Of a DNA stretch of 32,725 nt, positions 18,614 to 25,738 are shown one piece after another (within the stretch, counting starts at the first letter, position 1; every line of letters begins with the position of its first letter). The stretch is taken from contig CALVYN010000007.1 of the NCBI GenBank assembly GCA_944372245.1, forward strand, positions 1 through 32,725, given 5' to 3'. A program made the position numbers and the translations under genes. Source of the stretch: an uncultured Bacilli bacterium (GTDB lineage Bacteria; Bacillota_I; Bacilli_A; RFN20; CAG-288). A model generated the notes under the pieces. It was not told the DNA's origin, did no database searches, and saw only the letters and a list, made by a program, of their open reading frames with translations.

Positions 18614-20287
18614 ATGCTCTGCTCCCTGACTGTCCGCAACTTTCTGGTCATCCAGGATGCCACCCTCAATCTCGCCCCGGGACTGAACGCCCTCATCGGT
18701 GAGACCGGTGCGGGCAAATCCGTCCTGGTCGAGGCCCTAGCTCTGCTCTGCGGCCTCAAGAGCGGTGGCCTGACCCCGCGCGATGTCACGAAGAAGGCCT
18801 TCGCCGAGGCGGTCTTTGATGTCTCGTCGTGGACTGAGGCCCAGCGTCAGCGCGTGGCTGACTATCTGGATGGCGAGGAGGAGCTGATCCTCTCACTCTC
18901 GGCCACCGCTAAGGGTTCGATCGTGCGGCGCATCAACGGGGAGACGGTGACCCTGCAGACTCTCAGAGAGGCGATGCAGGGTGTGGTCGATATCCACAGC
19001 CAGAAAGATACGGCTGGTCTGTATGACCCTGCGGTTCAGCTGGCTGGTCTGGATGGCATGGGCGACAAGGACCACCAGAAGCTGATCTCAGACTACCGCC
19101 AGTCGTTGGCTGAGATGAATGAGGCCCAGAAGGCCATCGACGAGCTGCGCTCTGAATCCGCCAGCGAGGATCCCGACTTCCTCCGCTTCCGCATCGATGA
19201 GATCGTGCGTCTGCACATCCAGCCCGACGAGATTGAGGAGGCGGAGGCCAAGCTCTCCGAGCTCTCGGGCCAAGCCAAACTCAACGAGGCCCTCAAGAGC
19301 CTTTCACCCCTCCGCTCGCAGTTGGAGCAGATCCTGCCCGAGCTCTCCAGCAGTCTCGATTCGATCAGCTCCATACCCGGCGAGGCGTCAAGCTTGGCCC
19401 AGGAGGCCCTAGACTCCCTAAATAGCCTAGAGAACAATCTCGACTCGATCTCCTACCTCGAGGGCGAGGAGGAGACTGAACTGGTCGACCAGCTCAACGC
19501 GCGCCTCTTCGACCTAGAGAAGGTCCGCAGCCGCTACGGCCGCTCGACCAAGGAGATTCTCGATGCATTAGATAGCTTAAAGAGCAGGCTCGATAAGCTT
19601 TCCAACTTTGAAGATGAGTTGAAGAGACTACAGAATCGCCTCTCTCAGTGCACCGAGGAGGCGACCAGGATCGGGCGGGAGCTGTCCGCCTCGCGCAAGA
19701 GCTTGGCGAAGGATCTTGCCAAGCTTGTGAACGCGAACCTTAACGACCTCAAACTGCCTTCCTCCGGCTTCGACATCAAGGTCGAAACCGGCGACAAGCT
19801 CCTGTCCACGGGTCTGGACCACGTCGAATTCACGGTCGACCTCAATGGGCGGGGACGCTTTGAGCCCCTCAGGAAGGTAGCTTCGGGCGGTGAGTCCTCG
19901 CGCATCATGCTGGCGCTCAAGTGCGCTCTGGCTGGGGTCAATCCCGCTGACCTGATGGTCTTCGATGAGATCGATACGGGCATCTCGGGTGCAGTGGCCT
20001 TTCAGGCGGGACGCAAGCTGGCGGCCCTCTCTAGAAGCGTGCAGGTCTGCTGTATCACCCATCTTCCTCAGGTGGCCGCCTTCGCTGACCAGTCCTTCCT
20101 AGTCACGAAGAAATCTGTTGATGGCGGGGTCTCGATGACCGGGGTTGAGTCTCTCTCCGACAGCGAGGCGCTGGCTAGAGGTATCTCGGTTCTCCTGGAG
20201 GGAAGCGAGAGTTCCAGGGTCACGATCGATGCAGCCAAGGACCTCATCGACCAGGCCCACCGAGCCGAAGCCTCTAAGAAGTCATAG
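18614..20287 (+). CDS. recN: DNA double-strand-break repair protein RecN
   Basis: RecN is an SMC-like ATPase that gathers broken DNA ends for recombination. In 557 residues the Walker A is IGETGAGKS (about 28-36), the middle is a long coiled coil (about 150-370), and the C-terminal head has the ABC signature SGGESSR, Walker B DLMVFDEIDTG and the histidine switch ITHLPQVAAFAD. Length is normal. It ends the nusB-xseA-xseB-recN operon and is followed by a strong terminator. No SOS box was recognised in front of the operon. Confidence 0.96.
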   Translation: MLCSLTVRNFLVIQDATLNLAPGLNALIGETGAGKSVLVEALALLCGLKSGGLTPRDVTKKAFAEAVFDVSSWTEAQRQRVADYLDGEEELILSLSATAKGSIVRRINGETVTLQTLREAMQGVVDIHSQKDTAGLYDPAVQLAGLDGMGDKDHQKLISDYRQSLAEMNEAQKAIDELRSESASEDPDFLRFRIDEIVRLHIQPDEIEEAEAKLSELSGQAKLNEALKSLSPLRSQLEQILPELSSSLDSISSIPGEASSLAQEALDSLNSLENNLDSISYLEGEEETELVDQLNARLFDLEKVRSRYGRSTKEILDALDSLKSRLDKLSNFEDELKRLQNRLSQCTEEATRIGRELSASRKSLAKDLAKLVNANLNDLKLPSSGFDIKVETGDKLLSTGLDHVEFTVDLNGRGRFEPLRKVASGGESSRIMLALKCALAGVNPADLMVFDEIDTGISGAVAFQAGRKLAALSRSVQVCCITHLPQVAAFADQSFLVTKKSVDGGVSMTGVESLSDSEALARGISVLLEGSESSRVTIDAAKDLIDQAHRAEASKKS

Positions 20288-20380: not shown

Positions 20381-21496
20381 ATGAGACTCGTTCTTCACAT
20401 CGATCTAAACGCCTTCTTCGCCCAGGTGGAGATCAATCGAAATCCATCATTGAAAGGTAAACCCGTCGCGGTGGGCGGCGGCGTGCGAGGCGTGGTTTCA
20501 ACCTGCTCCTACGAGGCGCGCCACTTCGGCGTCCACTCGGGTATGCCCCTCTCTGATGCCTACAAGCACTGCCCTGACATCATCATGATCCCCGGTGACT
20601 ATCACGAGTACTCCAGGCAGTCGCACCTCTTCTTCGATGCGGTCAGAGAGATCTTTCCCCGGATTCAGAAGGCTTCGATCGACGAGTGCTACGCGGATGC
20701 GACCGAGTTCTTCCAGGATATTTCCGACGACGAGGAGGCGATGTACGAGCGTCTCTTCGACGTGCAGATGAAACTCCTGCGCCGAACTTCCCTGAAGTGT
20801 TCTATGGGCCTAGGACATACGAAATTCATGGCCAAGATGGGTTCCGACTACAAGAAGCCCTTGGGTATCACCTTCCTTCTGACCCCTCAGGAATGGCAGA
20901 CCAAAATCTGGCCTCTAGCGATCGGAAAGATGTATGGAATCGGCGAGATGACCGCTCCGAAGCTGGAGGCAGTGGGCATTACAACCATCGGAGAGTTAGC
21001 CACTACGGCATCTGAGGGAGCTAGGAAGGCCCTGGGATCCAATTTTGACTACCTGGTAGGTTGGGCCAACGGACTCGGCTCCGATGTCGTCTCGACGGAA
21101 TCCTCGCAGCGGAAATCCTGCTCCAACGATGTGACGCTCAACCAGGATACGACCGACTATGACGAGCTGAGGCAGTGGCTGGTTCAGTGTGCGGAAGACG
21201 TGGCTAGACAGATCAGACGTGAGGGTTTGGTTACTCGAACCGTCTGCATCAAGCTGCGCGACAATAACTTCTACACCGAGACGAAACGGGAGACCTTTGA
21301 GGAATATACCGATTCTGCTGAGACGATATCCTTCCATGCGCTGAAGATCTTTGATGCCTTCTACCGCGGGCAGCCCATCCGCCTCTGCGGAGTCTCGGTC
21401 GAAGATCTCGTGAAGCCCTCCGCCGTGAAGAAGAACATCCAGCTCACCTTGAACGAGGCGCTCGCCGATGGAGGTGACAGCGGTGAAACTAAGTGA
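20381..21496 (+). CDS. dinB: DNA polymerase IV (Y family)
   Basis: A 371-residue translesion polymerase. The first metal ligand is Asp8 in HIDLNAFFAQVE, with the aromatic steric gate in AFFA; the second pair is Asp101-Glu102 in SIDECYADAT. Also present are CSYEARHFGVHSGMPLSDA, the thumb with GIGEMTAPKLEAVGITTIGEL, and a C-terminal little-finger domain. DMDAFFA of typical DinB reads DLNAFFA, so the second acidic residue of the motif is Asn; the essential ligands remain. It overlaps xerD, so the repair polymerase and recombinase share a transcript. GC content and codon bias begin to fall from this gene rightward. Confidence 0.93.
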   Translation: MRLVLHIDLNAFFAQVEINRNPSLKGKPVAVGGGVRGVVSTCSYEARHFGVHSGMPLSDAYKHCPDIIMIPGDYHEYSRQSHLFFDAVREIFPRIQKASIDECYADATEFFQDISDDEEAMYERLFDVQMKLLRRTSLKCSMGLGHTKFMAKMGSDYKKPLGITFLLTPQEWQTKIWPLAIGKMYGIGEMTAPKLEAVGITTIGELATTASEGARKALGSNFDYLVGWANGLGSDVVSTESSQRKSCSNDVTLNQDTTDYDELRQWLVQCAEDVARQIRREGLVTRTVCIKLRDNNFYTETKRETFEEYTDSAETISFHALKIFDAFYRGQPIRLCGVSVEDLVKPSAVKKNIQLTLNEALADGGDSGETK

Positions 21497-22379
21497 ACAG
21501 GCCAGGGCCTTTTTGGCGGAGATCGTTGCTGAGAAGGGCGATTCAAGAAAGACAGTTCAAGCTTACTCTACTGATCTTTTGCAATTTATAAACTTTGTCG
21601 GTGATAAGGAAGATGTAGAAATTCTTCCCAACGATGTCGTCGCCTTTCTCTCCCATCTCACCCATGAGGGAGTCAAGGAGAGCACCCTTCAAAGGAAGGA
21701 AGTGGTCGTCAATTGTTTCTACCGCTACATTCAGGCCCAGGGGAAGGTCGATCGCCCTATCGGGCAGTTCAAGTTTCCTCGCCGCGAGCAGAGGATTCCG
21801 GATGTCCTCTCAATCGATGACATCAGCAGGATGCTTAGCGCCATCGATGAGAATGACCCCTATTCCATCCGTTTGAAAACGATGATCATCATCGCCTTCT
21901 CCTGCGGCCTACGCGTCTCCGAGTTGACCGGATTGAAGCTTAATGATGTAAACCTCGAGCAGGGCTTTGTCCGAGTCCTAGGCAAAGGTGGTAAAGAGAG
22001 ACTGGTTCCGTTTGGACATGATGGTGCCAAGGCCTTGACGGAATGGCTGATGATCAGACACAAGCTCAATCCTAAATCAGATGCCCTCTTCCTGGCTAAA
22101 GGTGGCCATAAGATGACGCGGCAATCGTTTAATCAGGAACTTACCAACCTTGCACAGACAGCGGGAATAACGAAGCGTGTAACACCCCATATGCTGCGCC
22201 ACTCTTTCGCTACAACCCTGCTCGAAAACGGAGCTCCGCTTCGCGAGGTGCAGGAGCTTTTGGGGCATTCAGATATCGAGACGACTCAGATCTATACCCA
22301 CGTGAGCTCTCGCAGCGCCCGCGACATCTATGACAGCATTGTCGGTGATGGGTTGGAAGAAGCGAAGAAGTATAATTAA
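21483..22379 (+). CDS. xerD: tyrosine recombinase XerD (XerC/XerD family)
   Basis: Xer recombinases resolve chromosome dimers at dif during division, activated by FtsK. All six catalytic residues are visible (numbered from the chosen start): Arg144 in CGLRVSEL, Lys168 in GKGGKER, His236 and Arg239 in HMLRHSFAT, His262 in LLGHSD, and Tyr271 in IYTH. I prefer GTG at 21483, because GGAGG lies at 21470-21474, eight bases upstream; this gives 298 residues, the length of E. coli XerD. ATG at 21468 would add five. The gene overlaps dinB. deoB follows, as in Bacillus. Its likely target, the dif site at 24729-24756, is only about 2.3 kb downstream. XerC cannot be excluded by eye, but the xerD-deoB synteny favours XerD. 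Confidence 0.9.
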   Translation: MKLSEQARAFLAEIVAEKGDSRKTVQAYSTDLLQFINFVGDKEDVEILPNDVVAFLSHLTHEGVKESTLQRKEVVVNCFYRYIQAQGKVDRPIGQFKFPRREQRIPDVLSIDDISRMLSAIDENDPYSIRLKTMIIIAFSCGLRVSELTGLKLNDVNLEQGFVRVLGKGGKERLVPFGHDGAKALTEWLMIRHKLNPKSDALFLAKGGHKMTRQSFNQELTNLAQTAGITKRVTPHMLRHSFATTLLENGAPLREVQELLGHSDIETTQIYTHVSSRSARDIYDSIVGDGLEEAKKYN

Positions 22380-22407: not shown

Positions 22408-23619
22408 ATGCACTATGTGAAATTTCCCCGCGTCTTCGTGATCGTCTGCGATTCGCTCGGTATCGGCTGCGCCCCCGATGCTGCCACCTATGACGACGAG
22501 GGGACCGACACCCTCGGACACTGCGCTCAGGCCTGTGGCTCCCTCCGTATCCCGATGCTCAACAGCATGGGAATGGGAGATATCAACGCCTTCAATGGCT
22601 CGGCCATCTGCCCGCACCCTCACGCTTACAGCGCCCGCCTTCAGGAAGCTAGTAAGTCCAAAGATACCCTGACTGGTCACTGGGAGATGATGGGTATTGT
22701 TACTGAGGAACCTTTTAAACTTTTCACACATACCGGCTTCCCTCAGGAGCTGAAAGATGCTTTCGAGAAAGAGGTTGGTGTGCCCGTGAAGTGGCTCGCC
22801 ACCTACTCTGGCACACAGGCTATCCATGACTTCGGTGAGTGGTCTGTGGAGAACAAGGGTCTGATTGTCTATACCTCGGGTGACAGCGTCTTCCAGATTG
22901 CTGCCCACGAGGACATCTTCCCTACCGAGCGGCTCTATGAGATCTGCGCCATCGCTAGAAAGCTCTGTGACCTGCCTCAATACCATATCGGTCGCGTCAT
23001 CGCTCGTCCCTTCGTCGGAAAGAATGCTGATGACTTCCATCGTGTTATGGCCGATCGTCGCGATCTCTCTCACACTCCCACTAAGCACACCTACATGTCC
23101 CTTCTCAAGGATGCGGGATACACGACCTACTGCGTGGGAAAGACCTGCGATATCTTCAGCATGGTCGGAGTCACCGGTGGTGAGCACACCGAATCGAATG
23201 CGGATGGCATGCTCAAGACCATCGCACAGGTCAAGGACGGCGAGTGGGGTGGAATGTGCTTCACCAATCTCGTCGCCTTCGATTCCGAATACGGTCATCG
23301 CCGTGACCCTGTGGGTTATGGGAAGTGTCTCGAGGAGTTTGATTCCTACCTCTATCAGCTCGTTCTTGCCCTCCATCAGGACGACCTTCTCATCATCACT
23401 GGCGACCACGGAAATGACCCCACCTACAAGGGCACTGATCACACCCGCGAATACGTTCCCTTCCTGGCCTATTCTAAGTCGTTTAAGAGCGGTAGAAAGC
23501 TCGCCGATAGGGCCACTTTCGCTGATCTTGGCAAGACCATCGCCTTGAACTTCGGCCTCTCTGACATCGATGATCTTGCGGGAACTCCCATCGTCGAGCT
23601 TTTGGAAGTTGATGCATGA
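22408..23619 (+). CDS. deoB: phosphopentomutase
   Basis: DeoB interconverts (deoxy)ribose-1- and -5-phosphate in nucleoside salvage. From the ATG at 22408 it has 403 residues, normal for the family; the frame is open upstream but GGAGG at 22395-22399 supports this start. Alkaline-phosphatase-superfamily metal motifs are visible: VCDSLGIGCAPDA at the N-terminus, DTLTGHWEMMG carrying the phospho-acceptor threonine, and TGDHGNDPTYKGTDHTREYVP near the C-terminus. xerD-deoB is conserved in Bacillota; there a purine nucleoside phosphorylase often follows, whereas here a lipoprotein gene overlaps the stop (ATGA). Confidence 0.96.
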   Translation: MHYVKFPRVFVIVCDSLGIGCAPDAATYDDEGTDTLGHCAQACGSLRIPMLNSMGMGDINAFNGSAICPHPHAYSARLQEASKSKDTLTGHWEMMGIVTEEPFKLFTHTGFPQELKDAFEKEVGVPVKWLATYSGTQAIHDFGEWSVENKGLIVYTSGDSVFQIAAHEDIFPTERLYEICAIARKLCDLPQYHIGRVIARPFVGKNADDFHRVMADRRDLSHTPTKHTYMSLLKDAGYTTYCVGKTCDIFSMVGVTGGEHTESNADGMLKTIAQVKDGEWGGMCFTNLVAFDSEYGHRRDPVGYGKCLEEFDSYLYQLVLALHQDDLLIITGDHGNDPTYKGTDHTREYVPFLAYSKSFKSGRKLADRATFADLGKTIALNFGLSDIDDLAGTPIVELLEVDA

Positions 23620-24470
23620 GTCCCTCCTCCTGGTTTAAGAGATCTCTCCTTTCGGTTATCGCCTGCTCATCTCTAGCTTCTGGCCTGTCTTCCTGCTCGG
23701 TAACCTCCGATGTTCGGGTTACCGCATATCTTTCAAGCGCCCTGTGCGCGGCCACGATCGAATCGGATTATTTCTTCTCTTACCAGGGCTCTTTCGATAT
23801 CTTCAGCATCAACTCCGATGTTGTTATCTGCCCGATTCAGGAGGCACAAGCGGCCATCGATGAGGGCTGGAACTACCAATTTATTCGTCCCACGCAGAGC
23901 CTGAATCTCTACGCATGCACTGTTGGTGGCGCACCTGTGACTGAAGCCTCTGATGACGATATCTTTCTTGTCTCTTCTCTATTTGAGTCCGAAGTCAACG
24001 CAGTAAAAGACCTTCTTGGCTTAAATGATAATCAGATTATCGTGGCCTCCTCGGTTCGCGATGTTGAGGAATCAGCTACCTCTGGTACTTATCAGGAGCA
24101 AGAAATAACAGGTGTAATTCTTGCCGAACCCTATATGACCATCGCTATCGGTGCCAATCTTGCTAGGAGCCTAAAGCCTCTAACTTCACTGAAGGACTCC
24201 AACGAATATGACGAGTTCTATGGACTCTACTTTTCAGATAGTTTTATGGAAGATCCTTTAGCCAGCAATGTTGAAGAGGATGTAAATCAGACACTAGAAG
24301 ATCTGGCTGAGAGAGGCGGCAATCAGACCATCTCTACGCTCTTTCAAATGGAAGAAAATGATGTCATCTCCTGCTTTGGCGCAAACCCCTCAATCGTCCA
24401 ATCCTTACTTTTGTATCGGGATGAAGATGGGTGGTATCAGGCTCAAAATAGGCTGTGCTATCTCGCCTAG
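23616..24470 (+). CDS. lipoprotein, probable orphan solute-binding protein
   Basis: A 284-residue protein with an N-terminal lipoprotein signal: basic WFKRS, hydrophobic LLSVIACSSLASG, and a lipobox LSSC with Cys27 as the lipidated residue. The mature part resembles NMT1/SsuA-type periplasmic binding proteins: a strand-turn INSDVVICPIQEAQAAI early on and GVILAEPYMTIAIG midway, the usual VxxxP and EPW-like elements. No ABC permease or ATPase gene is adjacent, so the ligand and transporter are unknown. Translation is coupled to deoB by ATGA. The GC content is lower than in the left part of the window. It is the last gene before the dif island, and no terminator of the usual type follows. Confidence 0.7.
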   Translation: MSPSSWFKRSLLSVIACSSLASGLSSCSVTSDVRVTAYLSSALCAATIESDYFFSYQGSFDIFSINSDVVICPIQEAQAAIDEGWNYQFIRPTQSLNLYACTVGGAPVTEASDDDIFLVSSLFESEVNAVKDLLGLNDNQIIVASSVRDVEESATSGTYQEQEITGVILAEPYMTIAIGANLARSLKPLTSLKDSNEYDEFYGLYFSDSFMEDPLASNVEEDVNQTLEDLAERGGNQTISTLFQMEENDVISCFGANPSIVQSLLLYRDEDGWYQAQNRLCYLA

Positions 24471-24503: not shown

Positions 24504-24534
24504 TAGTAGTAATTTAGTACTAACATATTACTAA
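24504..24534. repeat. dif-flanking palindrome, copy 1
   Basis: Begins TAGTAGTAA, has the central TAGTACTA, and ends TTACTAA; the right arm is the most divergent of the six. The centre is about 224 bases left of the dif centre. A degenerate pair of half-sites overlaps its right end. Confidence 0.85.
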
Positions 24535-24572
24535 TTTAATACTATCAGTAGCAAAATAGTAATAAATTAGTA
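24529..24572. repeat. degenerate inverted half-sites
   Basis: TACTAATTTAATACTA at 24529-24544 and TAGTAATAAATTAGTA at 24557-24572 are near-exact reverse complements separated by 12 bases. They are the same half-site as in the 31-bp palindromes but in the opposite, spaced arrangement. Confidence 0.6.
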
Positions 24573-24582
24573 GATGTGCAGA

Positions 24583-24613
24583 TAGTAGTAATTTAGTACT
24601 AATTTCCTACTAA
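24583..24613. repeat. dif-flanking palindrome, copy 2
   Basis: TAGTAG pairs with the right-end CTACTA around the central TAGTACTA; this copy is identical to copy 4 except for its last base. It is preceded by AGA, as is copy 3. Confidence 0.9.
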
Positions 24614-24645
24614 TTTTAATGAAGCGTGGATCTCAGGTGTGTAGA

Positions 24646-24676
24646 TAGTATTAAATTAGTACTAATTTGCTACTAA
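24646..24676. repeat. dif-flanking palindrome, copy 3
   Basis: Begins TAGTATTAA, centre TAGTACTA, ends GCTACTAA. It starts 63 bases after copy 2 and its end is 52 bases from dif. Confidence 0.9.
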
Positions 24677-24728
24677 TAAGTTCTTAGCTAAATGCTCAGA
24701 TAGACTGCTTGTGTTAATTTTTGAGTTC

Positions 24729-24756
24729 GTTTAACATAATAAATATTATCCGAAGT
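24729..24756 (-). other. dif: dif site, XerC/XerD chromosome-dimer resolution site
   Basis: Read on the minus strand, the 28 bases are a left (XerC) arm ACTTCGGATAA, a 6-bp centre TATTTA and a right (XerD) arm TTATGTTAAAC. From memory of known sites, the left arm shares ACTTC with Bacillus dif and the right arm differs from the E. coli XerD arm TTATGTTAAAT only in its last base. The 11-6-11 layout is exact. A xer gene lies 2.3 kb away, gene polarity switches here, and the surrounding DNA is AT-rich, all as expected of a chromosome terminus. Confidence 0.92.
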
Positions 24757-24793
24757 AATAAATTAGCTTAACAACCAGTCAAATTTGACAAAT

Positions 24794-24824
24794 TAGTAGT
24801 AATTTAGTACTAATTTCCTACTAG
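24794..24824. repeat. dif-flanking palindrome, copy 4
   Basis: First copy right of dif, starting 37 bases after it. It matches copy 2 at 30 of 31 positions (last base G instead of A). Confidence 0.9.
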
Positions 24825-24856
24825 TATAATCTTGGATTAAAAGTGCGAATGGCAAT

Positions 24857-24887
24857 TAGTAGCAAATTAGTACTATTTTCCTACTAA
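24857..24887. repeat. dif-flanking palindrome, copy 5
   Basis: Begins TAGTAGCAAA, centre TAGTACTA, ends CCTACTAA. It starts 63 bases after copy 4, the same step as between copies 2 and 3. Confidence 0.9.
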
Positions 24888-24921
24888 TACTCAATCGCAT
24901 TTATTACTAATTAAATACTAT

Positions 24922-24952
24922 TAGTATTTGTTTAGTACTAAATTAGTACTTT
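24922..24952. repeat. degenerate dif-flanking palindrome
   Basis: The central TAGTACTA is intact and TAGTA starts the left arm, but the right arm is lost. It lies 65 bases after copy 5, so it keeps the spacing of the array. Confidence 0.55.
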
Positions 24953-24976
24953 TTAAATACTATTTTAGTGGTAAAT

Positions 24977-25007
24977 TAGTAGCATTTTAGTACTATCTTT
25001 CTACTAA
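24977..25007. repeat. dif-flanking palindrome, copy 6
   Basis: Begins TAGTAGCATTT, centre TAGTACTA, ends TCTACTAA. It ends 20 bases before the mtnN stop codon. Confidence 0.88.
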
Positions 25008-25027: not shown

Positions 25028-25738
25028 TTATTTCAGTGCGTTGAGCATCCAGAGGGTGACAGAGGAGGCGTGCTTGGCGGCTAGCTCCAAAAACTCCTCG
25101 TAATTGGTGACGTTATCACCCTTACGAGTGTCATCGGAAATCGATCTGATGATGGCGAAGGGAACATTCAGCTTGCGAGCACACATAGCCACGGCACCGC
25201 TCTCCATATCGATGGCGTAAGGGTGGTCGAACTCCTCAATGATCTTTTCAGAGATATTTGTTGCGGTAGCGAAGACATCGCCAGATATGATGGATCCAAA
25301 CTTGATCTGGAGTCCTCTCTGTAGAGTGATGTTGTGGGCCGCATCGAGGAAGATGGGAGAAGCCTGATACCAGAGGGGCTCACCATCCATCTGGCCCAGA
25401 GGATTGCCGAAGGCAGTCAGGTCGACATCGTGGAAGGCCACACGGTCAGCCACTACGACATCGAGGGGTAGAACCTCGGGGTTGATGCTGCCAGCGACAC
25501 CAGTATTGATGATGGCTTTGACATTGCAAGCCTCAGAGAGACGGCCGATTGTGAAGCCTGTAGCCACCTTTCCAATCGATCCGATAAAGGCAAAAGCCTC
25601 ACCGGAAGGGATAGGGAAGACAGTTCCCTCGATACCGGAAATGACAGCCTGACGTCCCTGCTGGACCTTGTTCGTGAGAGCCTCATATTCGCTCTTCATC
25701 GCGCAGATGACAAGAACATAAGAAGGTTTATCCATCAT
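25028..25738 (-). CDS. mtnN: 5'-methylthioadenosine/S-adenosylhomocysteine nucleosidase
   Basis: MTAN cleaves adenine from methylthioadenosine and S-adenosylhomocysteine, feeding methionine salvage and the activated methyl cycle, including the LuxS route. In 236 residues the family motifs are GSIGKV, NTGVAGS, VVVADRVAFHDVDLTAFG, the glutamate-bearing DMESGAVA, and RSISDD with the catalytic aspartate. Two ATGs stand together at 25738 and 25735; GGAGG lies just upstream of both. It starts about 125 bases after rsfS; that gap holds a possible -10 TAGAAT (25802-25797, minus) without a good -35, so it may be cotranscribed with rsfS. Confidence 0.94.
   Translation of the reverse strand: MMDKPSYVLVICAMKSEYEALTNKVQQGRQAVISGIEGTVFPIPSGEAFAFIGSIGKVATGFTIGRLSEACNVKAIINTGVAGSINPEVLPLDVVVADRVAFHDVDLTAFGNPLGQMDGEPLWYQASPIFLDAAHNITLQRGLQIKFGSIISGDVFATATNISEKIIEEFDHPYAIDMESGAVAMCARKLNVPFAIIRSISDDTRKGDNVTNYEEFLELAAKHASSVTLWMLNALK

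Follow-up and report, generated by a model that had tools for sequence, protein, structure and literature searches.

The window, by which we mean the whole 32,725-nt stretch of DNA analysed here, contains a dif site, ACTTCGGATAATATTTATTATGTTAAAC, on the minus strand at positions 24729–24756 (XerC arm ACTTCGGATAA, XerD arm TTATGTTAAAC). Among 70 relatives, 67 yielded a dif-like site, and where long contigs allowed the distance to dnaA to be read, in three of them, it came to 0.47–0.49 genome lengths. The genes of the window converge on it. To the left lie the open reading frames of an XerC/D-type tyrosine recombinase (21468–22379, plus strand; family F1 in the conserved gene order) and of a lipoprotein-like protein (23616–24470, plus strand), the latter ending at the array described below and, by gene-order comparison, not conserved. 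To the right, an MTA/SAH nucleosidase-like gene (25028–25738, minus strand; conserved family F3) converges on the same array. The GC skew switches sign at dif; across positions 1–32725 it is negative to the left and positive to the right despite the gene convergence, whereas a terminus normally shows the opposite signs. Between positions 20000 and 26000, GC content drops from roughly 62–65% to 34% around dif, along a gradient that begins several kilobases off.

A palindromic array on both sides of dif

Six good 30-bp near-palindromes of the form TAGTA-N6-TAGTACTA-N6-TACTA surround dif, three per side, and match the consensus TAGTAG-N4-TTAGTACTA-N5-CTACTA (0–1 mismatch). The XerD side (left) carries palindromes 1 (24504–24533; one mismatch to the consensus, both strands), 2 (24583–24612; no mismatch, both strands) and 3 (24646–24675; one mismatch); the XerC side (right) carries palindromes 4 (24794–24823; no mismatch, both strands), 5 (24857–24886; 0–1 mismatch) and 6 (24977–25006; 0–1 mismatch). 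Degenerate copies matching the consensus occur at 24515–24544 (minus strand), one 11-bp register from palindrome 1, and at 24922–24951, where the minus strand of the copy shows TACTA repeated directly as three 11-bp units; others start at 24933 and 24966. Two flank boxes, both on the minus strand, adjoin palindromes 2 and 3: TCTGCACATCT at 24572–24582 and TCTACACACCT at 24635–24645. The window holds 16 palindrome matches, counting both strands, versus none in 100 shuffles, so that the array described in an earlier, sequence-only reading of this DNA, with three copies either side of dif plus degenerate ones, is real. That reading had also proposed a genome scan, in which scattered copies would have spoken for a dispersed element; a pattern search of the window's own genome (1.12 Mb, 61 contigs, about 90% complete) found the palindrome nowhere but at dif. 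A scan of named genomes for XerD gave only distant matches; the gene content, with a yqeG/yqeH/yqeK/rsfS cluster, may indicate a Bacillota lineage of small genome size.

The same array is kept by relatives. In 14 genomes of the window's genus (g1) and its sister genus (g3), we counted 60 palindromes, all within 400 bp of dif and split between the XerC side (left in the dif frame, 29) and the XerD side (right, 31), with the consensus TAGT(A)-N6-TTAGTACTAA-N6-(T)ACTA. No palindrome lies more than 1.5 kb from dif in the 207 kb of flank at these loci, and none was found in 108 kb of oriC DNA around nine dnaA genes of the sister genus. The earlier proposal of a conserved, terminus-specific array and candidate protein-binding system is borne out by these counts, as is its expectation that close relatives would keep the array at their own dif. 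One of the genomes (G020; L054, positions 8708 and 8854) has two inverted dif-like sites about 150 bp apart with palindromes between them. A dispersed repeat of the REP or MITE type, or an assembly artefact, might be suspected from the repetition itself and from a related tandem repeat of about 190 bp near dnaN and rpmB in the window's own genome; we consider it barely credible, because the palindromes occur only at dif, the DNA between copies is not conserved and palindromes were seen independently in 13 relatives.

Conservation does not extend to every regularity visible in the window. The steps of 63, 63 and 65 bp noted in the sequence-only reading are present there, yet palindrome-to-palindrome steps range from 37 to 143 bp in 13 relatives (31 to 143 bp over the 14 genomes) and show no helical phase (R 0.04–0.17); nor are the palindromes of the two genera helically phased relative to dif. 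The 63-bp rule is therefore local to the window's genome, and the idea that steps of six helical turns generally pack the bound proteins on one face finds no support. Complementary arm positions show no convincing covariation (two weak P values of 0.03–0.05 in ten tests), and they are symmetric because both arms are fixed.

The array lies between convergent genes and can be folded into hairpins of −5 to −8 kcal/mol, as an operator or a bidirectional terminator might. These hairpins barely exceed those of shuffled sequences (z −0.7 to −2.0), and neither a terminator-like site nor an excess of promoters was found in the array region. Furthermore, the array persists whichever gene lies to the left of dif (a lipoprotein gene in some genomes, an ABC permease gene or another in others), which argues against an operator. 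A transcription element, including the bidirectional transcript termination first considered, is highly improbable on this evidence.

An 11-bp unit and a DnaA box beside dif

Each palindrome resolves into TACTA units spaced 11 bp apart on each strand, with TAGTACTA as their meeting point. Elsewhere in the order, other genera carry this unit on the XerD side of dif as direct repeats, CTACTARWWWW, with a period of 11 bp. The pattern TACTA-N6-TACTA-N6-TACTA has roughly 250 matches in 75 of 147 genomes of the order versus about 7 for the reversed control pattern, and it occurs in only 5 of some 253 genomes elsewhere in the class; in spacing spectra of TACTA, 11 bp stands out sharply. Only three families, all of one order, have the system. 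The sequence-only reading was right that a terminus palindrome system exists and overlooked the 11-bp unit, the usual coupling of its direct-repeat form to a DnaA box and sites reaching out to about 20 kb. In one genus (g27; G095, G143, G108 and G135), TACTA arrays reach 25 matches per genome and are spread across many contigs, an abundance that suggests a recent expansion.

The direct-repeat array is usually preceded by a DnaA box, TTWTCCACA. Among 64 genomes (g2, f3 and f5), a perfect TTWTNCACA lies between dif and the array in 47, at +91 to +127 bp; the other 17 have no perfect box there. All 48 same-strand boxes within 260 bp to the right of dif fall at +90 to +129 from the dif start, and 163 of 172 TACTA units in the same interval fall at +100 to +199, with only 8 boxes to the left of dif. 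The gap from the box to the first TACTA is 17–21 or 31–32 bp in 42 of 46 cases. A composite search for a dif arm followed after 72–102 bp by a DnaA box matched 28 of 62 genomes of the order; among 332 genomes from outside the order, about 15 matched, compared with 7 for the control, and 25 of the 28 matches in the order coincide with an independently located dif. To the right of dif in several f5 genera (G026, G038, G052, G072, G086 and G135), a gene of about 180–195 amino acids, which by eye looks like the PemK/MazF type, ends beside the DnaA box and TACTA module.

The distance from dif to the box clusters near 103, 114 and 124 bp. Its periodicity is significant at 10.5–11 bp (R = 0.60–0.62, P ~ 1e-4 to 7e-4, for 24 values collapsed by genus only, with no tree), the best-fitting period is broad (10.75–12.5 bp), and shifts of the box within genera come close to whole turns (20, 13, 11, 11 and 10 bp). 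Because the DNA between dif and the box is, by eye, not otherwise conserved, the spacing and the rotational setting seem to be what is selected, a pattern that contact between proteins bound at dif and at the box would explain. We infer that proteins bind at the TACTA sites and at the box, which occupies a defined, helically stepped position beside the XerCD core site, as a candidate Xer accessory sequence would.

The box itself raises the question of whether the site serves DnaA: a terminus sink, or a complex of DnaA with a nucleoid protein, such as Rok in Bacillus subtilis, that would link the end of replication to the control of initiation. The box is precisely placed and has the same sequence as the oriC boxes, and in B. 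subtilis TACTA is a top 5-mer for Rok, with DnaA and Rok sharing 36 regions (PMC6212790). Against this, the box is usually single rather than part of a cluster, and it is lost in both the window's genus and the sister genus, so that DnaA cannot be essential to the array everywhere. Rok as the binder was rejected, as its winged helix (PF23159) was absent in all of 36 genomes, with a positive B. subtilis control. We regard a site for DnaA regulation as quite unlikely.

Distant sites and their orientation

In genomes with dif located, 137 of 198 distinct triple-repeat sites lie on the dif contig. Most of the assemblies seem to be drafts, and the positions given relative to dif cover the sites on that contig. 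Further arrays, up to about 20 kb from dif, occupy syntenic positions in gaps between genes that are themselves conserved. Nearly all of these distant sites are intergenic (one lies downstream of parC, another separates a yneF-like from a plsY-like gene), and their neighbours are housekeeping genes (lepA, rluD, dxs, parC, plsY and an ftsA-like gene; all names assigned by eye). The array at −8.5 to −10 kb, in the yneF-like/plsY-like gap (G135, G086 and G072), carries a DnaA box almost abutting its first TACTA. In the neighbour-gene comparison, no regulator gene recurs beside distant sites, and an autoregulated gene for the binder at these positions was rejected, since no gene of that kind recurs.

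In the dif frame, the positions of these sites are remarkably constant. The sites at about +0.14 kb all share one orientation (18 of 18); those at −2.6 to −5.4 kb (18 of 18) and at +3.6 to +8.8 kb (27 of 27) point away from dif; and at −8.5 to −10.4 kb, 22 sites point towards dif (22 of 25 at −6 to −12 kb), as do the +11 kb sites. Direct repeats are polar, and 10 of 12 site classes, as we grouped them, point away from dif (P ~ 0.02), a bias that a replication fork trap, in the role of Tus-Ter or RTP-Ter, might produce. However, several genomes (for example, G111, G100, G114 and G135) combine a ‘+’ site at −8.5 kb with a ‘−’ site at −3 kb, both of them conserved, and strict polar arrest of either polarity would therefore leave DNA unreplicated. 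The symmetric sites on both sides of dif in the window would stop both forks, and the RTP protein (PF02334) was found in none of 46 genomes, with a positive B. subtilis control. A strict polar trap was rejected on site orientation and the absence of RTP; in that form, the fork arrest suggested earlier finds no support, and we judge a fork trap very unlikely.

Another reading is a MatP-matS-like organizer of a terminus macrodomain, which would not act on dif itself and for which proximity to dif would mark only the centre of the domain. Many terminus-specific sites in intergenic gaps over at least ±20 kb favour it. It would not lead one to expect the nearest array to lie at a fixed, helically stepped distance from dif and to be linked to a DnaA box, nor the palindromes of two genera to keep within 1.5 kb of dif. 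On balance, an organizer of this kind seems unlikely.

The sites are confined to the terminus, the exceptions being genus g27 and repeats in the window's own genome (G000). In the latter, tandem repeats of about 190 bp combine TACTA arrays with TCTRCACACCT boxes after dnaN (C1:78800–79174, L105; C10:1–200, L107) and near rpmB (C3:~47650–48130, L106). The dnaN repeat runs from the end of C1 onto the start of C10, and the two contigs overlap; boxes of this type also adjoin palindromes 2 and 3 of the window. An oriC element, at first suggested by the copies of TACTA beside dnaN, was rejected: 20 oriC regions from other genomes (about 12 kb around dnaA) contain DnaA boxes and no TACTA pair at 11 bp, and the DnaA-trio rule of the oriC basal unwinding system (box, spacer of at most 16 bp, at least three contiguous trios; PMC8287927) fails, holding in 2 of 47 cases.

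A candidate complex at dif and its known counterparts

Taken together, the observations suggest that the terminus of the chromosome is marked by a protein complex not described before. In the reading that we favour, with a probability of roughly 0.55, TACTA units are recognized by a dedicated DNA-binding protein (here X), which, with DnaA where the box is present, would form a nucleoprotein complex at dif that organizes the terminus or helps to resolve dimers. Across most of the order, the binding sites of the putative X would be two to four head-to-tail CTACTARWWWW units, usually with a DnaA box about 20 or 31 bp before them, and this module would sit at a fixed rotational setting, some 75–100 bp past the XerD arm. 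Through additional X sites in conserved gaps between genes, the marked region would reach at least about 20 kb to each side of dif. We infer from its wider distribution that the direct-repeat form with a DnaA box is the older state; in the window's genus and its sister genus, the box would have been lost, and the X sites would have turned symmetric and multiplied on both sides of dif. The complex would most probably act on the recombination machinery or on terminus positioning in the manner of plasmid accessory sequences and of MatP-matS.

Several observations weigh against a complex built by X. No regulator gene recurs beside the sites and X was not found among the neighbours; the window's genus has no DnaA box, and 17 of the 64 genomes lack a perfect one; the palindromes of the two genera are not helically phased to dif; g27 genomes carry many arrays on other contigs; and in Escherichia coli FtsK alone activates dif, the known accessory sequences being plasmid-borne and on the XerC side (PMC11724359). 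A response-regulator operator of the OmpR/PhoB type was rejected, as the OmpR-type winged helix (PF00486) is absent in eight well-complete site-bearing genomes (for example, G038, G081 and G111). A more specific form of the reading, which we put forward tentatively and at less than even odds, is that the chromosomal dif comes with an accessory module of its own: DnaA and the putative TACTA-binder, held at a fixed helical setting, might directly control XerCD recombination or sister-terminus pairing and so couple the initiator to dimer resolution, the module having evolved in the window's genus into a DnaA-free, two-sided palindromic array.

To our knowledge, few site-specific terminus systems are known: Tus-Ter, RTP-Ter and MatP-matS, and in a wider sense KOPS and XerD sites. 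A terminus site system conserved through three families of one order adds to these, one in which a DnaA box and dif are kept a set helical distance apart. Our literature search, partial in coverage, found no account of a DnaA box or a TACTA array beside dif. The precise sequence signature is now available for finding the binding protein, and both terminus marking in this lineage and the coupling of initiation to dimer resolution become directly testable questions.

As first proposed, the array matches neither RTP-Ter nor matS. RTP-Ter sites resemble those described here in being AT-rich, about 30 bp long and imperfectly symmetric, with a dimer-binding logic; in contrast, the genomes here have no RTP, and their site orientations form no trap. 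The matS sequence differs from TAGTA-N6-TAGTACTA-N6-TACTA and from the 11-bp TACTA units. The oriC basal unwinding system also places same-strand CTACTA units after a DnaA box, whereas the period here is 11 bp rather than 3, and the array is missing from the oriC regions sampled in other genomes. For the site itself, the DnaA-Rok partnership of B. subtilis comes closest, in which TACTA is a top Rok 5-mer and DnaA co-binding is reported (PMC6212790); Rok regions lie in foreign DNA, whereas the sites here are phased and terminus-specific. In role, the nearest analogues would be MatP-matS and the plasmid accessory sequences. matS, a 13-bp site repeated 23 times over 800 kb of the E. coli terminus macrodomain (PMC3330122), shares with this system terminus-restricted, repeated and presumably protein-bound sites around dif; here, by contrast, the sites crowd at dif, as TACTA repeats of 11 bp or as palindromes of 30 bp, and most of the order adds a DnaA box. 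In the plasmid sites cer and psi, the accessory sequences take up about 200 bp next to the XerC arm, and the proteins used are PepA and either ArgR or ArcA (PMC11724359). Like them, the array described here offers candidate sites for host proteins at defined positions beside an XerCD site; unlike them, it is chromosomal, and its direct-repeat module lies on the XerD side.
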